DNA of 64,000 nt, from the NCBI RefSeq assembly GCF_001913155.1, contig NZ_CP018760.1:3100001-3164000 (forward strand), read 5' to 3'. Shown in pieces: positions 6,711-64,000 of this stretch. The notes beneath the pieces are model-generated. The model ran no database searches and was not told the DNA's origin. It was given only the letters and a program-made list of their open reading frames with translations. The position numbers were made by a program, and so were the translations under genes. How positions within the stretch are numbered: the stretch's first letter is position 1; the number at the start of each line of letters is the position of its first letter. The DNA comes from Maribacter hydrothermalis. GTDB lineage: Bacteria; Bacteroidota; Bacteroidia; Flavobacteriales; Flavobacteriaceae.

Positions 6711-8234
6711 TGGTAATGGTTCGGTTAAAATTGCTAAACATGACAGTATGCCTTCTCTATAATTTCCTAGACGCAAATTTTCATCTGGTCCGTGTATGTT
6801 GTTATCTGGGTTTGGAATTCTAACAGATACGGCAGGAGTATTTAAACTTTTAATAAAAGGAGCCATAGGTTGTGAGCCGCCTGTTGTTCTCATATTTATT
6901 ATACGTTCACCAAAAACTCTTGCTAATGCATTATTTAAGAACAGACCTATAGAGCTATTCATGTCTGTTCTAAAAGGTTTAGAGCCTATTCTGTAGGTTA
7001 GGGAGGCTAATTTCTTATTCACAGCTCTTTCTGCGTTGCTAGGTACTGAATCTACTAAATAATAACCTTGTTCGGCAATATGGTTTCGTAGGAGCTCTAA
7101 TTGCCTTTCCGCAGGGGTTTCCGGCACTAGTCTCATGTCAAGCTCAATGATAACTTCTTCGGGAATTAATGTGCGTACCTCTTTACCTGTCCAGCCAGCT
7201 TTAAGGCCTCTTATATTTAAACTAGGGAATTGTAATGCTTCTTGGTAGGTAGATGCCACTTCTTCGGGTTTTAATATACCTAGTCTATTATTTAGACTAT
7301 CGTTATTTTCTGGTATTAAAGCTAAAAGTTGTTTGTCGCGTTCTGTTAGGATTACTCCGTCATAAAAACCTGGTATTTGTACTATGCCTTTATCGTCTTT
7401 TAAGCTACTTATTAATCGGGCTGCCTCAAAAACTGGATTGGGTGCGTAATTTCCGTATTGACCACTATGGAGCGCATTTTTAGGTCCAAATACTTTTATG
7501 GTAGCGGTTACAATTCCACGAGCTCCATAGGTTAGGGTTGGTAAATTTGAAAGGTGTCTGGTGCCATCCATAATTAATAGCATGTCTGCTTCTAATAAAT
7601 TTTTATTTTCTAAAACTGCTTTTGGTAAATCAGGAGAACCTAGTTCTTCCTGAAAATCCATAATTACTTTTATGTTGTATTTCGGATTTATGTTTTGCTC
7701 TTGTAAAATTTGTAGCGCTGAAATTAAAGACATTGCCGGTCCTTTAGAATCGGATGCGGAACGTGCAAAAATTCTCCAGTTATCATCAAAATTATTTTGG
7801 GCAGAATCAACTTGTATGGAGTTCCAAATTCCATTTTTATTTTCTTTAATTACCGGAATAAAAGGGTCTGTTTGTGACCATGCTTTTTGATCTACAGGTT
7901 GTCCATCTATTTGTAAATAAAAGAGAATGCTTTTGTAATTTTTTCTATATATTTTTTCGGCAAAAAGTAGGGGAGCTCCAGCTGTTTTTATGGTCTGTGT
8001 TTTGAAATTTAATTCTTCAAAAACACTATCGCACCATTGCTTATTTTTATCTACTTGTTCATCGTAATTCCCATCGTTTTGTAGTTTCAAAAAATGGCGT
8101 AAATTCGTAAAAGCTTCTTTGAATTTTTTGTCGGTTAGCGCTGTTAATTCTTCCCTATTTAATGTTTGTGAATAACTTAAAGCGCTGCTAGTAAAAAGAA
8201 AAATGAGTATTGCTAAAACCTTCCATTTTTTCAT
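6708..8234 (-). CDS. Secreted M20-family metallopeptidase-like protein with altered HxD motif
   Basis: A 508-residue exported protein (signal peptide 1-22, ending SALSYSQ) of the M20/M25/M40 zinc peptidase family. The catalytic domain keeps the bridging Asp of RSASDSKGP (D162), the acidic pair of QEELGSP (E196/E197), and HSGQYGNYAPNP of the dimerisation domain. HGPDENLRL with the last His ligand lies near the C-terminus. The usual GHxDVQP motif reads LQIDGQP around Q108-D110, so the first metal-binding His is Gln. Activity may be altered, or this may be a subfamily hallmark. It converges on hsp20. The substrate is unknown, probably di- or oligopeptides in the periplasm. Confidence 0.88.
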   Translation of the reverse strand: MKKWKVLAILIFLFTSSALSYSQTLNREELTALTDKKFKEAFTNLRHFLKLQNDGNYDEQVDKNKQWCDSVFEELNFKTQTIKTAGAPLLFAEKIYRKNYKSILFYLQIDGQPVDQKAWSQTDPFIPVIKENKNGIWNSIQVDSAQNNFDDNWRIFARSASDSKGPAMSLISALQILQEQNINPKYNIKVIMDFQEELGSPDLPKAVLENKNLLEADMLLIMDGTRHLSNLPTLTYGARGIVTATIKVFGPKNALHSGQYGNYAPNPVFEAARLISSLKDDKGIVQIPGFYDGVILTERDKQLLALIPENNDSLNNRLGILKPEEVASTYQEALQFPSLNIRGLKAGWTGKEVRTLIPEEVIIELDMRLVPETPAERQLELLRNHIAEQGYYLVDSVPSNAERAVNKKLASLTYRIGSKPFRTDMNSSIGLFLNNALARVFGERIINMRTTGGSQPMAPFIKSLNTPAVSVRIPNPDNNIHGPDENLRLGNYREGILSCLAILTEPLP

Positions 8235-59777: not shown

Positions 59778-60488
59778 TTGAAAGAACCTAAGAAATACCA
59801 TATTATTCAAGAGTATATAAAAAAAAGGATACAAGGTGGGGAATATGCCATTGATAGTTACCTACCTTCTGAAAATGATATTTGTAAAAAATTCGGGACT
59901 ACCAGAACAACAGTTAGAAAAGCGCTGGATGAACTTCTAAAAGAAGGATTTATTGCAAAAGAACATGGCAAGGGTAGTAAGGTAATTGCACGAAGAAAGT
60001 CTTTGGGTCTTTTGACCATCAAAGGTTTTTCAGGGGCAATTGATTACGAAGTGGATACGATATTAACGAAAAAACCAGATATTTCAACGTGGGATCCGGT
60101 AATTGCCTTTGCTTTGACCGAAGAGGAAGAACGTTCTGCATGTGTATATTTTCAAAGGGTTCGTCATATTAACGGCTCGCCCGTTGTTTTAGAAAATAAT
60201 TGGTATGCGTTAAATGCTCTAGAAATGATAAAACCCGACGATTTTATTGATGGGTCTTTTTTTAAAACCTTAAGTCAAAAGTATTTTATCGAAGTAATGG
60301 GTGCCGAGCAAGAATTACGCGCTATTACTGCTTCAGAAGAAATAGCGAAATCACTCAAAATTGCTACGGGAGACCCTATTCTACATATCTCCGTAAGGTT
60401 CAGAACAAGTAAGCCAAATTTAAATCTATATGGAGATCTGTACTGTAAAACAACCGATTATCCCATTCGAAACACCTATTTTGGTTAA
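59778..60488 (+). CDS. GntR family regulator with UTRA ligand-binding domain
   Basis: HutC-type repressor, 236 residues. The winged HTH (residues 1-70) contains SENDICKKFGTTRTTVRKAL and EGFIAKEHGKGSKV. The UTRA domain (about 75-230) ends with ILHISVRFRTSKPNLN and SGSPVVLENNWY-like strands (read as GSPVVLENNWYAL). Start TTG at 59778; the HTH begins at once and no ATG is upstream. UTRA domains usually bind sugar phosphates, so it probably controls the convergent sugar-related cluster, although its composition is closer to the flanking genome than to that cluster. Confidence 0.9.
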   Translation: MKEPKKYHIIQEYIKKRIQGGEYAIDSYLPSENDICKKFGTTRTTVRKALDELLKEGFIAKEHGKGSKVIARRKSLGLLTIKGFSGAIDYEVDTILTKKPDISTWDPVIAFALTEEEERSACVYFQRVRHINGSPVVLENNWYALNALEMIKPDDFIDGSFFKTLSQKYFIEVMGAEQELRAITASEEIAKSLKIATGDPILHISVRFRTSKPNLNLYGDLYCKTTDYPIRNTYFG

Positions 60489-60515
60489 ATTGGTTGCTCG
60501 ATTATCGCGATTTAT

Positions 60516-60593
60516 ATGTTCTGAGGCTTCTGTCGAAATTAAATGTTAAATTTATTTTTAATGACTCGATGGCTTTCCCTGAGGTTATTTACA
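60516..60593. repeat. Dispersed intergenic repeat, copy C
   Basis: Aligns with 37773-37850: ATGTTC, GTCGAAATT, AATGTT, TTTTAATG, CTCG-TGGC and CCC are shared. It overlaps the stop codon of the phosphotriesterase-like gene at 60589, as copy A overlaps a stop codon. It also sits where base composition seems to change. Confidence 0.6.
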
Positions 60594-61548
60594 GTGTCCT
60601 AAAAAAAGAATATAACTGTTGTGGATTCTCTATAAACAAGTTATTATAATAGTGTTCAAGTCCTTTTGATTGTAAGAATTTTGGAATTTCTTCAATTAAA
60701 TAATTTAAACCGGGTTGGCCGCCATAACTTTTCCAATAGGCATTTTTGGCCATGTCCATTCCCAAAGTAATCTGATTCGGATATTCTGGTAAAAGATGTT
60801 CCAATAACAAAAACGTATAATTGGGTTCCTCTTTTTTCCATCTAAAAGCACTGTCATACTCAACGCGTACACCGGTATCTAAGACCGCTCGGTTATAATC
60901 CACATCTTTTGCCCTATCTACATGAGATAGCACAATATGTTCTGGGCACGCCCCAAGTTGTATAAATAGTTTGGCCTGTTCCAGCGCATGCCTTCCAAAA
61001 TTGGTATGTGTCAAAATGGGTACGCCTGTGGCCAAATGGGTGTTGACCACAGCCCGGAAAATTTTTTGCTGATGCGGAGTAAAAGGCTCGTCACCGGTCG
61101 CCAGTTTAATCAAGCCTGCTTTGTGGGTAGTTCGTTCAATAATGGGTCCGGAGTAATCAAATTTATCTACACCTTCCACAATGTCAGCTATAAAGAGGTC
61201 GGTAAGTTGGTCTTCGGAATATTGATATCGCCAATGTGTCTCCGGATAATACATTTCTAGATGGATTCCGGTTGGAACGATAATGTTCACACGACTATTT
61301 TTGCTTACCTCGGCCAATAGCTCCACATTTCTGCCTGCATTGGCGGGCATGGTATCTACCACCGTTCTACCACCGGCCGAAAAGAAATTGCTTAGTTCTT
61401 CAGAGATTTTATCGGAATCATTGAGTAAAAATCCGGGATTTTTTCTCGTAACAAAACAATCATCAATAACAATGTGTTCGTGCGAATAGGTAAAACCCAT
61501 TTCCGAACTCGGCATATCCCTTAAAACCGTTCTAAAAAATTTGTGCAT
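60589..61548 (-). CDS. Phosphotriesterase-family (PTE-like lactonase) metal hydrolase
   Basis: Amidohydrolase-superfamily enzyme of COG1735, 319 residues. The binuclear site is present: HEH near residues 23-25 in TYSHEHIVIDD, a carboxylated-lysine candidate in GLIKLATGD, His in PILTHTNFG and LSHVDRAKD, and the final Asp in TLGMDMAKN. Members described so far hydrolyse lactones of sugars or sugar phosphates more often than phosphotriesters. No signal peptide. Last gene of the minus-strand cluster, 7 bases after the FAD enzyme. Confidence 0.9.
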   Translation of the reverse strand: MHKFFRTVLRDMPSSEMGFTYSHEHIVIDDCFVTRKNPGFLLNDSDKISEELSNFFSAGGRTVVDTMPANAGRNVELLAEVSKNSRVNIIVPTGIHLEMYYPETHWRYQYSEDQLTDLFIADIVEGVDKFDYSGPIIERTTHKAGLIKLATGDEPFTPHQQKIFRAVVNTHLATGVPILTHTNFGRHALEQAKLFIQLGACPEHIVLSHVDRAKDVDYNRAVLDTGVRVEYDSAFRWKKEEPNYTFLLLEHLLPEYPNQITLGMDMAKNAYWKSYGGQPGLNYLIEEIPKFLQSKGLEHYYNNLFIENPQQLYSFFRTL

Positions 61549-61555
61549 GATAAAC

Positions 61556-62914
61556 CTAGTTATTTGACCATCCGTTACGTGAAATATCCGCTATTTTTTC
61601 AGGAACCTGTAAAATACCTCCAATTTCTATAATTTGGTCTTGTAGTTTCTTAATAGGAATGTTTTTTGCATCGTGATCTTTTTGTAAGGATATGAATGCT
61701 GCCAGGCCAGCGGCTTGGCCCATACTCATTGTTTGCGCCATAGATCGGCACGATGCATGTGCGTCATGCGTAGCGGAAAAACAACGCCCTACCACCCATG
61801 TATTCATACTATTTTGAGGGACAATGGTGCCATATGGAACGCCATAAGCACCACCGTTAGGCACATATTGCCAAAATGTTTCAGAGCTGCCATCATCTCC
61901 CTTTCGATGATCTTCTATAGGTGCGCCACAAAGAAAAATTTGGTCATCGAATTGTTTTGCGCCCATACAATCCTCTTTTGTCAAACGGTAGTTGCCATAC
62001 ACCCTTCGCGTCTCCCTAACTCCTATTTGGTTCGATAGCCCTATGATTTTTGCGTTCTCATATCCTGGTATTTCACTCCTAAAGAAATCCTCAAAAATAA
62101 AGGATTGCCGCCGCCCTTCTATTTCCGCTTTGGTAATTTCCTCAACATTTAGCGGGTCAAGGTCTACAACTTTTACCGCCACCGTAGAAATACATTTTGG
62201 CTGACACATTTCGTGGGCAGAACCTTCTTTTCGCGGTAGGGGATGTGTACCTTTTTCAAAGGCTTCCGCCATTCTTTGCTTCAACATCTCTTTTCCACCC
62301 GCCTTTTCGTAACTGGCGTGGTCTACATTCGAAATCCTAAAAGTAGTGGTCATGCTTTGTGCGGGTTCGTTATCGCCTGCCTTTTCATAAGGGATATTAG
62401 CCCAATGGCAATAATCGGCATCGCCAGTGGCATCAATGACACGCTTGGCAGTTATAGTAAAAAAACCGATTCCTTTATGGAAAAATACACAGGTAGAATA
62501 TTCCCCAACACTTTCAACACCTACCAGAGTAGAATGATAATATAGGGAAATACCGTTTTGGGTCAATAACATATCCCAAACGTGTTTTAGTCGTTCTGGA
62601 TTATAATTTACTCCTGTGCCTGCACCATAGGTATTCGGTCTAAGAAAAATGTCACCTGTACTGTTCAATGAATTTACGATTGTGTCCGGAATGCCACCCA
62701 CGATCTTGCGGGGGGTATCAGAGGGCGTAAAGAAACCGTAGAAGGTATCGAGCATCTGGGTAGAGGTACCTCCTGGAAACCCATATCGTTCCACCAAACT
62801 TACTTTAACGTTGCCCCTAGAGGCAGCTAACGCTGCTGTTGAACCCGCACTACCACTACCGATAACAAGTATGTCTGTATTGAATTTTTTCGAGATAGAA
62901 GCGTTAAAATTCAT
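61556..62914 (-). CDS. FAD-dependent oxidoreductase (PF12831-type)
   Basis: About 452 residues from the ATG at 62914; a start at 62935 would overlap the upstream gene by 17 bases. TDILVIGSGSAGSTAAL is the FAD-binding Rossmann motif, VSLVERYGFPGG the ribose-binding region, and RVIDATGDADYCHWANIP the second dinucleotide motif. The C-terminal VVGRCFSATHDAHASCRS closes the FAD site. Such enzymes occur in Bacteroidota and Planctomycetes beside carbohydrate catabolism genes. It may oxidise a sugar to a lactone for the next enzyme (inference). Confidence 0.88.
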   Translation of the reverse strand: MNFNASISKKFNTDILVIGSGSAGSTAALAASRGNVKVSLVERYGFPGGTSTQMLDTFYGFFTPSDTPRKIVGGIPDTIVNSLNSTGDIFLRPNTYGAGTGVNYNPERLKHVWDMLLTQNGISLYYHSTLVGVESVGEYSTCVFFHKGIGFFTITAKRVIDATGDADYCHWANIPYEKAGDNEPAQSMTTTFRISNVDHASYEKAGGKEMLKQRMAEAFEKGTHPLPRKEGSAHEMCQPKCISTVAVKVVDLDPLNVEEITKAEIEGRRQSFIFEDFFRSEIPGYENAKIIGLSNQIGVRETRRVYGNYRLTKEDCMGAKQFDDQIFLCGAPIEDHRKGDDGSSETFWQYVPNGGAYGVPYGTIVPQNSMNTWVVGRCFSATHDAHASCRSMAQTMSMGQAAGLAAFISLQKDHDAKNIPIKKLQDQIIEIGGILQVPEKIADISRNGWSNN

Positions 62915-62918
62915 ATAG

Positions 62919-63704
62919 TTATTTTTTATTTCCAATATTCTGATACAATTTTGCCATTAAATGGGCATGCTCATCATAAGCGGATTCAAACAATTCTACC
63001 GCCCTTTGCTCACCAACGATCTTACCACTGCTCAGTACCTTTGGCGATTTACCGTTTTCGTGCAAGATTTTGGCAATTTCAGCTTTTAGGCAATTGATCA
63101 ATAAAACACCGCCTAAGGTAGATCCTGGTGCAACGGGCGAATCCAAGCCATCTAGATAAATCATGGCATCTCCTAATGGAGCACCTGTGTCCAAGACGTA
63201 ATCTGCGAAGTCGGTCAATTTTTTGCCGTCACTTTTCTTCGAGGTGCTACCTTCTAGATGGAGGCTACTGACCAGTGCCACCACTTTAATACCTCTTTCT
63301 TTAAACTCCTCCGCCATCTCAATAGGGACTACATTACAGCCACTGGACGATATGATCAAAGCGGTATCTTCTTTACTAGTATCAAAATTCCTCATGATCT
63401 TGGCCGCGAAACCCGGCACATTTTCCAAGAACATGGCCTGTCGTTGACCATTGGCACCCACGACCAAATTGTGAAACGATACCGAAAGTTCCACTATCGG
63501 ATTGAATCCGGGAAATGAACCATACCGCGGCCACATTTCCTCGACCATCATTCGACTATGGCCCGAACCGAATAAATGGACCATTCTGCCCGCTAAAATA
63601 GACTTGGCGAATAGTTTTGCCACTTCTTGTATTTTGGACTCCTGTTGGGCTACTACCGATAAAATGTCACTTCCTTTTTCTAAATATTGCTTTGTAACGC
63701 TCAT
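62919..63704 (-). CDS. SIS-domain sugar isomerase-like protein (UPF0309-type)
   Basis: A 261-residue phosphosugar-binding SIS protein. MVHLFGSGHSRMMVEEMWPR contains the GSGxS phosphate loop, and ALIISSSGCNVVPIEMAEEF a second SIS strand with Ser residues. PGSTLGGVLLINCL follows near residue 200. No signal peptide. It is upstream of the FAD enzyme with the ROK kinase just upstream again (the genes nearly touch at 63701-63704). It is plausibly an isomerase or aminosugar-phosphate deaminase; the substrate is unknown. Confidence 0.85.
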   Translation of the reverse strand: MSVTKQYLEKGSDILSVVAQQESKIQEVAKLFAKSILAGRMVHLFGSGHSRMMVEEMWPRYGSFPGFNPIVELSVSFHNLVVGANGQRQAMFLENVPGFAAKIMRNFDTSKEDTALIISSSGCNVVPIEMAEEFKERGIKVVALVSSLHLEGSTSKKSDGKKLTDFADYVLDTGAPLGDAMIYLDGLDSPVAPGSTLGGVLLINCLKAEIAKILHENGKSPKVLSSGKIVGEQRAVELFESAYDEHAHLMAKLYQNIGNKK

Positions 63705-64000
63705 TTTAAATTTTTATGATTGATTGTTTTGGCAAAATATGCGGCTCCTATCGCTCCCGCATATCCACCTAATTTTGCTACTTCTACGGGTGTCCTGTAT
63801 CCTCCTGGTCGCCATTCATAGATGTCCATATATTTTTTTAAGGGAGTTATAAGGGCGTTTTCCGCTCCTGCCGAAATACCGCCTCCTAAAACAATACATT
63901 CAGGCGCAAGAATATTAGTCAATGATGCCAATGCAATAGCCAGTTTTTCAACGGATGTTAACCACCATGTTTTTGCCTGTTTATCGCCCTTAATATAGGC
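63701..64000 (-). CDS. ROK-family sugar kinase, C-terminal part cut by window edge
   Basis: The frame is open to base 64000, giving 99 codons that end at TAA 63701. The visible part has ECIVLGGGISAGAENALI and LGGYAGAIGAAYFA, the C-terminal blocks of ROK glucokinase / N-acetylmannosamine-kinase-like proteins. The N-terminal ATP-binding part is outside. It overlaps the SIS gene by 4 bases, so the cluster continues as an operon beyond the window. It likely phosphorylates the sugar fed to the SIS protein. Confidence 0.85.
   Translation of the reverse strand, partial: AYIKGDKQAKTWWLTSVEKLAIALASLTNILAPECIVLGGGISAGAENALITPLKKYMDIYEWRPGGYRTPVEVAKLGGYAGAIGAAYFAKTINHKNLK

Follow-up and report, generated by a model that had tools for sequence, protein, structure and literature searches.

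The four minus-strand genes at the end of the window (the whole stretch of 64,000 nucleotides analysed here) are the end of an 11-gene run, and we propose, with a probability of about one half, that this run is a horizontally mobile, GntR-controlled operon in two halves, by which an unusual sugar would be phosphorylated, reshaped and oxidised and a phospholactone opened. The sugar would probably be a C3-oxidised or an amino hexose. All enzymes of the run belong to known superfamilies, and a pathway with this gene set was not found described in the literature searched, which covers part of all literature, in line with the earlier note, which had not recognised the set as a described pathway.

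Layout of the locus

Within the window, a plus-strand gene for a GntR/UTRA transcription regulator (59778-60488, 236 aa, PF00392 and PF07702) converges on the 3' end of the operon's last gene, which encodes a PTE-family (COG1735) amidohydrolase and predicted lactonase (60589-61548, minus strand, 319 aa, PF02126). Upstream of the latter, also on the minus strand, lie the genes for an FAD-dependent oxidoreductase (61556-62935, 459 aa, PF12831), for a SIS-domain protein of the UPF0309/PRK02947 family that is predicted to be a phosphosugar isomerase or dehydratase (62919-63704, 261 aa, PF13580/PRK02947) and for a ROK sugar kinase, the 3' part of which is in the window (63701-64000, on to window-equivalent 64630, PF00480). 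The spacings of +7 (PTE/FAD), -17 (FAD/SIS) and -4 bases (SIS/ROK), together with family assignments by PFAM and NCBIfam profiles, bear out the tightly packed four-gene group facing a GntR/UTRA regulator that had been read from the sequence.

The run continues for 9.3 kb beyond position 64000, up to window-equivalent 73344 (window-equivalent coordinates being the position in L008 + 56999), with genes for an SDR (64634-65437), a Gluconate_2-dh3 subunit (GDH3; 65425-66150), a GMC oxidoreductase (66009-67706), a Gfo/Idh/MocA protein (GFO; 67718-68962), a TIM-barrel protein (68934-69860) and two FG-GAP proteins (70021-71259 and 71266-73344). A second, C3-oxidation-type half of the cluster thus lay outside the window. 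The FG-GAP genes, which have no match in nine relatives, were first held to be unrelated neighbours, a view that was dropped once the operator core was located (73397-73412): they are counted into the run because the genome's sole exact copy of this core sits just upstream of them. A TonB/SusCD pair, a permease or a glycoside hydrolase, which the earlier note had advised looking for past 64000, was not seen in the run or among the larger ORFs inspected by eye as far as 28 kb beyond the window, and the operon itself contains no aldolase gene.

Conservation and co-occurrence of the gene set

The order SDR, SIS, FAD, PTE was kept in all nine relatives with flanks read, with ROK between SDR and SIS in eight of them, so that the gene-order conservation on which the original proposal depended is present. 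The core SDR-ROK-SIS-FAD-PTE keeps this order across Bacteroidota and occurs in altered versions in other phyla. We then took the best 80 of the 208 stretches encoding a relative in a scan of a genome collection, yielding 78 distinct loci biased to close relatives, and considered as assessable the 58 loci that included flanks of 6.5 kb on the upstream and 2 kb on the downstream side of PTE, excluding the other 20. In this sample (best 80 of 208 stretches), SDR, SIS, FAD and PTE occurred together in 46 of the 58 assessable loci, 41 of which also had ROK, while GMC was present in 11/58 and GDH3 in 9/58; these counts are slightly low because the ORF caller hid genes behind longer opposite-strand ORFs. 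The SIS and ROK genes of L065 and the FAD gene of L055 were recovered only by tblastn. The 78 loci overlap the nine relatives (e.g. L033 = G251, L034 = G189, L042 = G129), and the two sets are therefore not independent.

At the level of the family, PTE was found in 8 of 249 genomes (own included), all of which carry the FAD gene (71-80% identity, own genome excluded) and the SIS gene (78-87%). Trees were built only from loci with all four genes (56, including the window). Gene distances were correlated (Spearman 0.75-0.86; no value above 0.22 when the labels of each pair were permuted 200 times), a correlation that still includes shared species history. The FAD and PTE trees had 25 of 53 splits in common. 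Conflicts arose with the PTE tree for 4 out of 26 well supported splits of FAD, and with the FAD tree for 8 out of 19 splits of SIS. The PTE and FAD phylogenies, named beforehand as a possible point of failure, thus largely agree.

An alternative, which some conflict between gene trees favours, is that two independent modules travel together under shared GntR control, GFO-SDR-ROK-SIS acting on one sugar and FAD-PTE oxidising and hydrolysing another compound. GFO-SDR-(ROK)-SIS without FAD-PTE in G222, G225 and G247 suggests that the set may indeed be two modules, and FAD and PTE without SDR, ROK and SIS in L063, L076 and L091 point the same way, while also supporting the coupling of FAD to PTE. 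We nevertheless regard this reading as improbable, given the joint presence of the four genes in most assessable loci, a second, diverged cassette in which SIS, SDR, FAD and ROK are joined again, and Deinococcus, where kinase, SDR, FAD, PTE, aldolase and SIS are joined. A KDPG-type aldolase adjoins the set in Deinococcus and in the second cassette, and a DgaF-like one, scoring below its cut-off, does so in Listeria.

A candidate operator

In relatives, an 18-bp palindrome, AACTTGTACGTACAAGTT, stands ahead of the operon. Its 16-base core is matched exactly at a single site of the 4.27-Mb genome, which lies directly before the run. This copy provides an independent test, since the site played no part in motif discovery. 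With up to 2 mismatches allowed, 27 matches were found against 0 for the reversed control in the 1.35 Mb of the 78 loci (best 80 of 208 stretches), which is not an independent test because the motif was derived from the same loci; 21 of the 27 precede the first operon gene. The SIS cassette occurs in 11 genomes of the family; the operator was present in the nine with a linked GntR gene and missing from the two without. The exception among the named loci is L037, where the operator is exact but the stretch read contains no linked GntR gene. Near the window's GntR gene there was no copy with up to 3 mismatches. These last two points count against the link, yet the GntR/UTRA protein is probably the regulator of the operon and would act by binding the palindrome.

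The predicted lactonase and the flavoprotein

The PTE protein matches PF02126 with 138 bits, and its top NCBIfam model is the phospho-furanose lactonase (NF045706), at 182.9 bits, far under the cut-off of 630. Residues H23, H25, K148, H181, H209 and D265 are invariant in 10/10 proteins and match the HxH, Lys, His, His and Asp of the binuclear metal site. Lmo2620 (PDB 3pnz), one of the COG1735 phosphofuranose lactonases together with 3msr and 3ovg, reportedly binds the distal phosphate through Lys242, Lys244, Arg275 and Tyr278. At these places, the PTE protein has R236, K268 and Y271, invariant in 10/10, and K238, which is K in 7/10. The phosphate-ligand argument is weak because the score is far below the lactonase cut-off and E. 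coli PHP keeps basic residues, K and R, at two of these positions.

The FAD oxidoreductase scores 310.5 bits against PF12831, above the gathering cut-off of 27, and its structure model (pLDDT 85.9) has a general flavoprotein fold.

The SIS protein and a possible amino-sugar route

The SIS protein reaches 258.7 bits against NF002805 (UPF0309/PRK02947 sugar isomerase domain; cut-off 135), and its residues aligned to NagS H53, S54, R64, E94, S119, S121 and D179 are invariant in 21/21 aligned SIS proteins. PMC12680351 describes NagS as dehydrating GlcNAc-6P and as being inhibited by 6-phosphogluconate. This is consistent with an amino-sugar route, in which ROK would yield a HexNAc-6-phosphate, SIS would dehydrate or deaminate it in the manner of NagS, PTE (or a creatininase-type amidohydrolase) would be a deacylase or lactonase, SDR and FAD would oxidise C1, and the product would be KDPG. 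Such a route is further suggested by the neighbourhoods of UPF0309-type SIS genes (31-34% identical) elsewhere: they adjoin nagA-/nagB-like genes in Evansella L105 and share a stretch with such genes in Planococcus L106 (both named by eye), they are next to annotated nagE, nagA and nagB on plasmids of Planococcus and Priestia, and in Martelella nagA and a ROK gene are close by. The KDPG-type aldolases adjoining the set in some loci fit as well, as does the top NCBIfam model for the ROK protein, that of a ManNAc kinase, although its 92 bits fall short of the cut-off of 283. We still consider this route unlikely: NagS S91 and N228, important for GlcNAc-6P activity, align with Met and Lys in the window SIS, the activity on GlcNAc-6P of three distantly related NagS homologues (26-36% identity) was negligible or absent in the same paper (PMC12680351), and in the Bacteroidota loci listed a single nagB-like gene was noted close to FAD-PTE, in L081 and on the opposite strand.

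The interrupted ROK gene

Codon 46 of the ROK gene, about 500 bases past the window end, is an in-frame stop, so that the gene fails to encode a complete two-lobe kinase with an N-terminal DIGGTK motif. A frameshift was rejected, as both sides of the stop share one reading frame, which identifies it as a nonsense codon, and a restart at a later start codon was rejected because it would omit the DIGGTK motif (residue 11). G080, G225 and five Arenibacter loci likewise lack an intact kinase, having no ROK gene at all, while the adjoining SIS and SDR genes are open both there and here; either another kinase acts in these cases or the SIS substrate receives its phosphate in some other way. With the gene interrupted here and missing in several relatives, phosphorylation by ROK is not to be assumed in this genome, where the step has probably been lost or is carried out by another kinase. 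An FGGY kinase takes the place of ROK in Deinococcus and in Bryobacteraceae (the latter by eye), while Firmicutes and a Chloroflexota MAG have a PTS there (both by eye), which argues for a phosphorylation step.

The stop, together with the rarity of PTE in the genus, where 3 of 36 genomes (own included) carry it, could also mean that a recently acquired operon has lost its kinase and that the pathway is defunct in this strain. We find this hard to favour, as the remaining run genes are open, the operator core is exact and relatives without ROK retain open SDR and SIS genes; moreover, a single assembly was examined, so that the stop may be a sequencing error.

Proposed pathway

Under the two-half reading that we prefer, the first half would be optional and probably located at the cell surface, where GMC with its Gluconate_2-dh3 subunit, the TIM-barrel protein and the Gfo/Idh dehydrogenase may free or modify the unusual sugar; it resembles C3-oxidation ('3-keto') routes. 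The conserved core would form the second half, in the cytosol: the ROK kinase would convert the sugar to a phosphosugar, the UPF0309-type SIS would remove its C2 proton by isomerisation or beta-elimination, SDR and FAD enzymes would oxidise it, and PTE would open the phosphorylated lactone to a sugar-acid phosphate that may pass to a KDPG-type aldolase. To our knowledge, none of these enzymes has an experimentally tested function. The sugar-acid pathway suggested by the earlier note is supported in part, by the conserved set, the PTE-FAD co-occurrence and the active-site residues of PTE and SIS; its order of steps, its lactone and its sugar stay hypothetical, and phosphorylation by ROK is not to be assumed in this genome. 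A more specific version, which we consider a long shot, is that 3-keto sugars from the cell surface, rather than simply being returned to glucose by reduction, are phosphorylated, reshaped by SIS and oxidised at C1 to ascorbate-like phosphorylated 3-keto-lactones, which PTE opens for a KDPG-type aldolase, all within one spreading GntR regulon.

The defined operon, the candidate operator and the named host strains with the cluster (Maribacter antarcticus, Kriegella aquimaris, Ulvibacterium marinum, Arenibacter and Larkinella species) make a direct substrate search possible. The pathway would give a role to a PTE subfamily, a UPF0309 SIS branch and a PF12831 flavoprotein, for which no tested function is known to us, and might reveal a way in which marine bacteria exploit C3-oxidised or amino sugars.

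Comparison with known systems

The levoglucosan pathway (LgdA/B1/B2/C) combines a dehydrogenase with proteins annotated as sugar phosphate isomerases and proceeds via a 3-keto sugar; unlike for the gene set here, no kinase, SIS protein or lactonase is mentioned in the account of it consulted (PMC7676230). The Gfo/Idh protein of the run shows a family resemblance to levoglucosan dehydrogenase (NF052479, 119.4 bits, under the 650 cut-off), and scores 24.8 and 32.5 bits against the Bacteroides disaccharide/glycoside 3-dehydrogenases BT_2158 and BT_2159 (under 750 and 650).

NagS (SCO4393, the Streptomyces GlcNAc-6-phosphate dehydratase, PDB 9eol) is of the same UPF0309 SIS family as the window SIS, which keeps all four essential residues (H53, R64, E94, D179) and the three phosphate-binding serines, but not S91 and N228, and lies in a different operon.

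In the ascorbate (Ula) pathway, a lactonase opens a phosphorylated lactone. An MBL-fold protein weakly similar to L-ascorbate-6-phosphate lactonase lies beside the set in 12 of the 78 loci (best 80 of 208 stretches), and the PTS beside the Firmicutes PTE was judged by eye to be ascorbate-type; PTE, however, would be a lactonase of another fold, FAD, SDR, ROK and SIS are not Ula components, and no UlaD-type decarboxylase was noticed in passing.

The closest solved relatives of PTE are the phosphofuranose lactonases (3msr, 152.6 bits; 3pnz, 139.8 bits), with which it shares the metal ligands; three of the four phosphate ligands reported for Lmo2620 would also be kept. In four Firmicutes loci, including Listeria immobilis, the gene for a protein of this kind, 30-32% identical to PTE, is also near a UPF0309-type SIS gene, but the partners differ, being FAD, SDR and ROK for the window PTE and a PTS and a creatininase-type protein for the Firmicutes proteins.

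Gene content of the operon

Gene calls placed a GntR/UTRA regulator at 59778-60488 on the plus strand, followed on the minus strand by a COG1735 amidohydrolase (PTE, 60589-61548), a PF12831 FAD oxidoreductase (FAD, 61556-62935), a SIS protein (62919-63704) and the end part of a ROK kinase gene (from 63701), with spacings of 7, -17 and -4 bases between PTE and FAD, FAD and SIS, and SIS and ROK respectively. The gene positions of the earlier note were thereby confirmed, and its family names agreed with Pfam and NCBIfam searches. In the host genome, a single contig of 4,271,158 bases with the window at 3100001-3164000, the minus-strand run extends 9.3 kb beyond the window end with genes for an SDR, a Gluconate_2-dh3 subunit, a GMC oxidoreductase, a Gfo/Idh/MocA dehydrogenase (GFO), a TIM-barrel protein (TIM, AP_endonuc_2) and two FG-GAP proteins, all on the minus strand; counting the window's four, the run has 11 genes. 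Upstream of it, the next large ORF is helicase-like and on the opposite strand. The gene cluster is real, conserved and larger than first reported. The SusCD pair, permease or glycoside hydrolase that the earlier note proposed to look for past position 64000 was found neither in the run nor in the larger ORFs lying within 28 kb of the window end on that side (flanking genes named by eye).

The ROK frame, read in the stretch across the window end (L008) from its start at 7631 to 6702, is interrupted only at codon 46, by an in-frame stop that was seen again in a genome-wide ROK search. The kinase is interrupted in this strain. A full-length gene was present in 8 of the 9 relatives with flanks read, the one without ROK being genome G080; G225 lacks it as well, and in five Arenibacter loci SIS immediately follows SDR with no ROK between. 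Separately, a Luteitalea MAG (L102, 8448-10001) carries a ROK-like N-terminus and the FAD gene in one open frame, which may be a fusion, a deletion or a misassembly.

The two FG-GAP proteins head the operon here (L008 13022-16345, window-equivalent 70021-73344) and had no match in the nine relatives with flanks read. In 5 other loci the DNA downstream of the cassette encodes proteins that look by eye like FG-GAP proteins. The stretch where GntR and PTE converge (60478-60612 of the window) contains an interspersed repeat of about 100 bp with 43 matches in the genome, some of them pieces of one copy. By manual count it is on the plus strand in 26/28 matches at 2.0-3.75 Mb and on the minus strand in 12/15 elsewhere, a replichore-like bias (Fisher 2e-6) for an interval picked after looking.

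Distribution and conservation

At E <= 1e-40, PTE was detected in 8 of the 249 genomes of the family and in 3 of the 36 of the genus; both counts include the window's own genome. Its identity to the window protein is 71-75% within and 72-75% outside the genus; from this and its patchy distribution we infer horizontal transfer as the likely history. FAD occurred in 10/249 family genomes (E <= 1e-60), namely the 8 with PTE and two at 44-46% identity, and SIS in 20/249 (E <= 1e-20), 11 of them at >=78% identity. These 11 are the 8 with PTE plus G222, G225 and G247, which carry GFO-SDR-(ROK)-SIS without FAD-PTE.

A scan of GTDB genomes yielded 208 stretches encoding a PTE relative, of which the best 80 were retained, giving 78 loci. 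Most hosts among these best 80 of 208 are Bacteroidota, and the core genes also occur in MAGs labelled Phycisphaeraceae, Armatimonadetes, Luteitalea, Bryobacteraceae and Chloroflexota. In the 58 of these loci with enough flank, SIS was found in 53, FAD in 53, SDR in 48 and ROK in 43; SDR, SIS, FAD and PTE were together in 46/58, 41 of which also had ROK. FAD and PTE lie at most 1.4 kb apart without SDR, ROK or SIS in loci L063, L076 and L091, which suggests that PTE hydrolyses the product of the FAD enzyme. Gene trees of 56 loci were mostly concordant (Spearman 0.75-0.86), an agreement that counts as support and not proof because species relatedness alone would also give it. The FAD and PTE trees had 25/53 splits in common, and 4 of the 26 supported FAD splits contradicted the PTE tree; for SIS and FAD the figures were 15/53 and 8/19.

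Candidate operator

A palindrome search in the DNA before the operon genes yielded AACTTGTACGTACAAGTT. Its 16-base core with at most 2 mismatches had 27 matches in 1,353,377 bases from the 78 loci versus 0 for the reversed control, counts that are not independent of the motif, as it was derived from the same loci. Of these matches, 21 stand before the gene that opens the operon, which is TIM or GFO (in L050 the site overlaps the called start); the other 6 are in the vicinity of GntR or of other genes, including three that precede a MetE-like gene. Across the family set, the operator (0 or 1 mismatch) was present in 15/249 genomes, comprising 9/11 with the SIS cassette versus 6/238 without, and exact copies in 7/11 versus 0/238 (Fisher ~3e-11 for each comparison, from manually entered counts). 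Several of the genomes also contribute to the 78 loci. The reversed control matched in 7/249 genomes (0 or 1 mismatch), so lone one-mismatch matches elsewhere can be chance. G080 and G225 have the SIS cassette with neither the operator nor a linked GntR gene; as a counter-example, L037 has an exact site, yet the stretch read there contains no linked GntR gene.

The sole exact copy in the window's genome (3173397-3173412) lies some 50 bp ahead of the first FG-GAP gene, embedded in a perfect 48-bp palindrome and outside the places from which the motif was derived. In genome G189, further one-mismatch sites precede two operons: one encodes a 3-keto-disaccharide hydrolase domain, a DUF7133 protein and an FG-GAP protein, the other is a PSCyt/DUF1501/TIM-barrel operon; in this one genome, such sites link the putative regulon to C3-oxidation-type enzymes. 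An FG-GAP protein of an operator-marked operon in G189 is distantly similar (27%) to those of the window's genome.

Variant gene sets

A Deinococcus aetherius plasmid carries a row of sugar ABC transporter, FGGY kinase, SDR, FAD, PTE, KDPG aldolase and SIS. Locus L101 also has an FGGY kinase, named by eye. Two family genomes have a diverged cassette (GntR-SIS-SDR-FAD-ROK-creatininase-type hydrolase), with a KDPG aldolase in one, and four Firmicutes (L103-L106) have PTS (named by eye), PTE, a creatininase-type protein and SIS. Of these four, Listeria immobilis additionally has an aldolase resembling DgaF (170.5 bits against a cut-off of 300), and the Evansella locus runs on into nagA- and nagB-like genes (named by eye). 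Across these loci, other phosphorylation systems thus stand in for the kinase and a hydrolase of a different fold for PTE, while KDPG-type aldolases turn up repeatedly.

A short MetE-like protein and an MBL-fold protein weakly similar to L-ascorbate-6-phosphate lactonase repeatedly adjoin the cassette (noted at L034 12330-14206, L030, L042 and L128), in 16 and 12, respectively, of the 78 loci (best 80 of 208); in genome G525 a MetE-like gene sits between FAD and PTE. A third kind of cassette (L112, L113, L114) combines a SIS protein 34-35% identical with ROK-like, MFS-like, apparent GH9 and DUF5009 genes (by eye); this combination suggests that the role of this SIS branch concerns chitin or glucosamine.

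Active sites and proposed pathway

PTE residues H23, H25, K148, H181, H209 and D265 were invariant in 10/10 aligned sequences. Of the four phosphate ligands of the phosphofuranose lactonase Lmo2620, three (here R236, K268, Y271) were kept in 10/10 and the fourth is Lys in 7/10; E. coli PHP is likewise basic at two of the four places, so a phosphorylated substrate is favoured only weakly. In SIS, the places matching H53, S54, R64, E94, S119, S121 and D179 of NagS, the Streptomyces GlcNAc-6P dehydratase, were invariant in 21/21, whereas the window protein has Met in place of S91 and Lys in place of N228. We therefore predict that SIS is an active phosphosugar enzyme of the UPF0309 family with a substrate other than that of NagS. 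The structure model of FAD (pLDDT 85.9) indicates a general flavoprotein fold and nothing more specific.

By the membership tests made, the proteins fall outside the families of phospho-furanose lactonase, NagS, levoglucosan dehydrogenase and BT_2158/BT_2159. The earlier note recognised no described pathway, and the literature searches made found none either. Because the kinase and hydrolase are exchanged among variants and the aldolase recurs, we infer that the kinase would act first, followed by SIS and oxidation, the lactonase and then the aldolase. Such a route would resemble those of the Ula or Entner-Doudoroff type in its phosphorylation, oxidation, lactone opening and aldolase cleavage.
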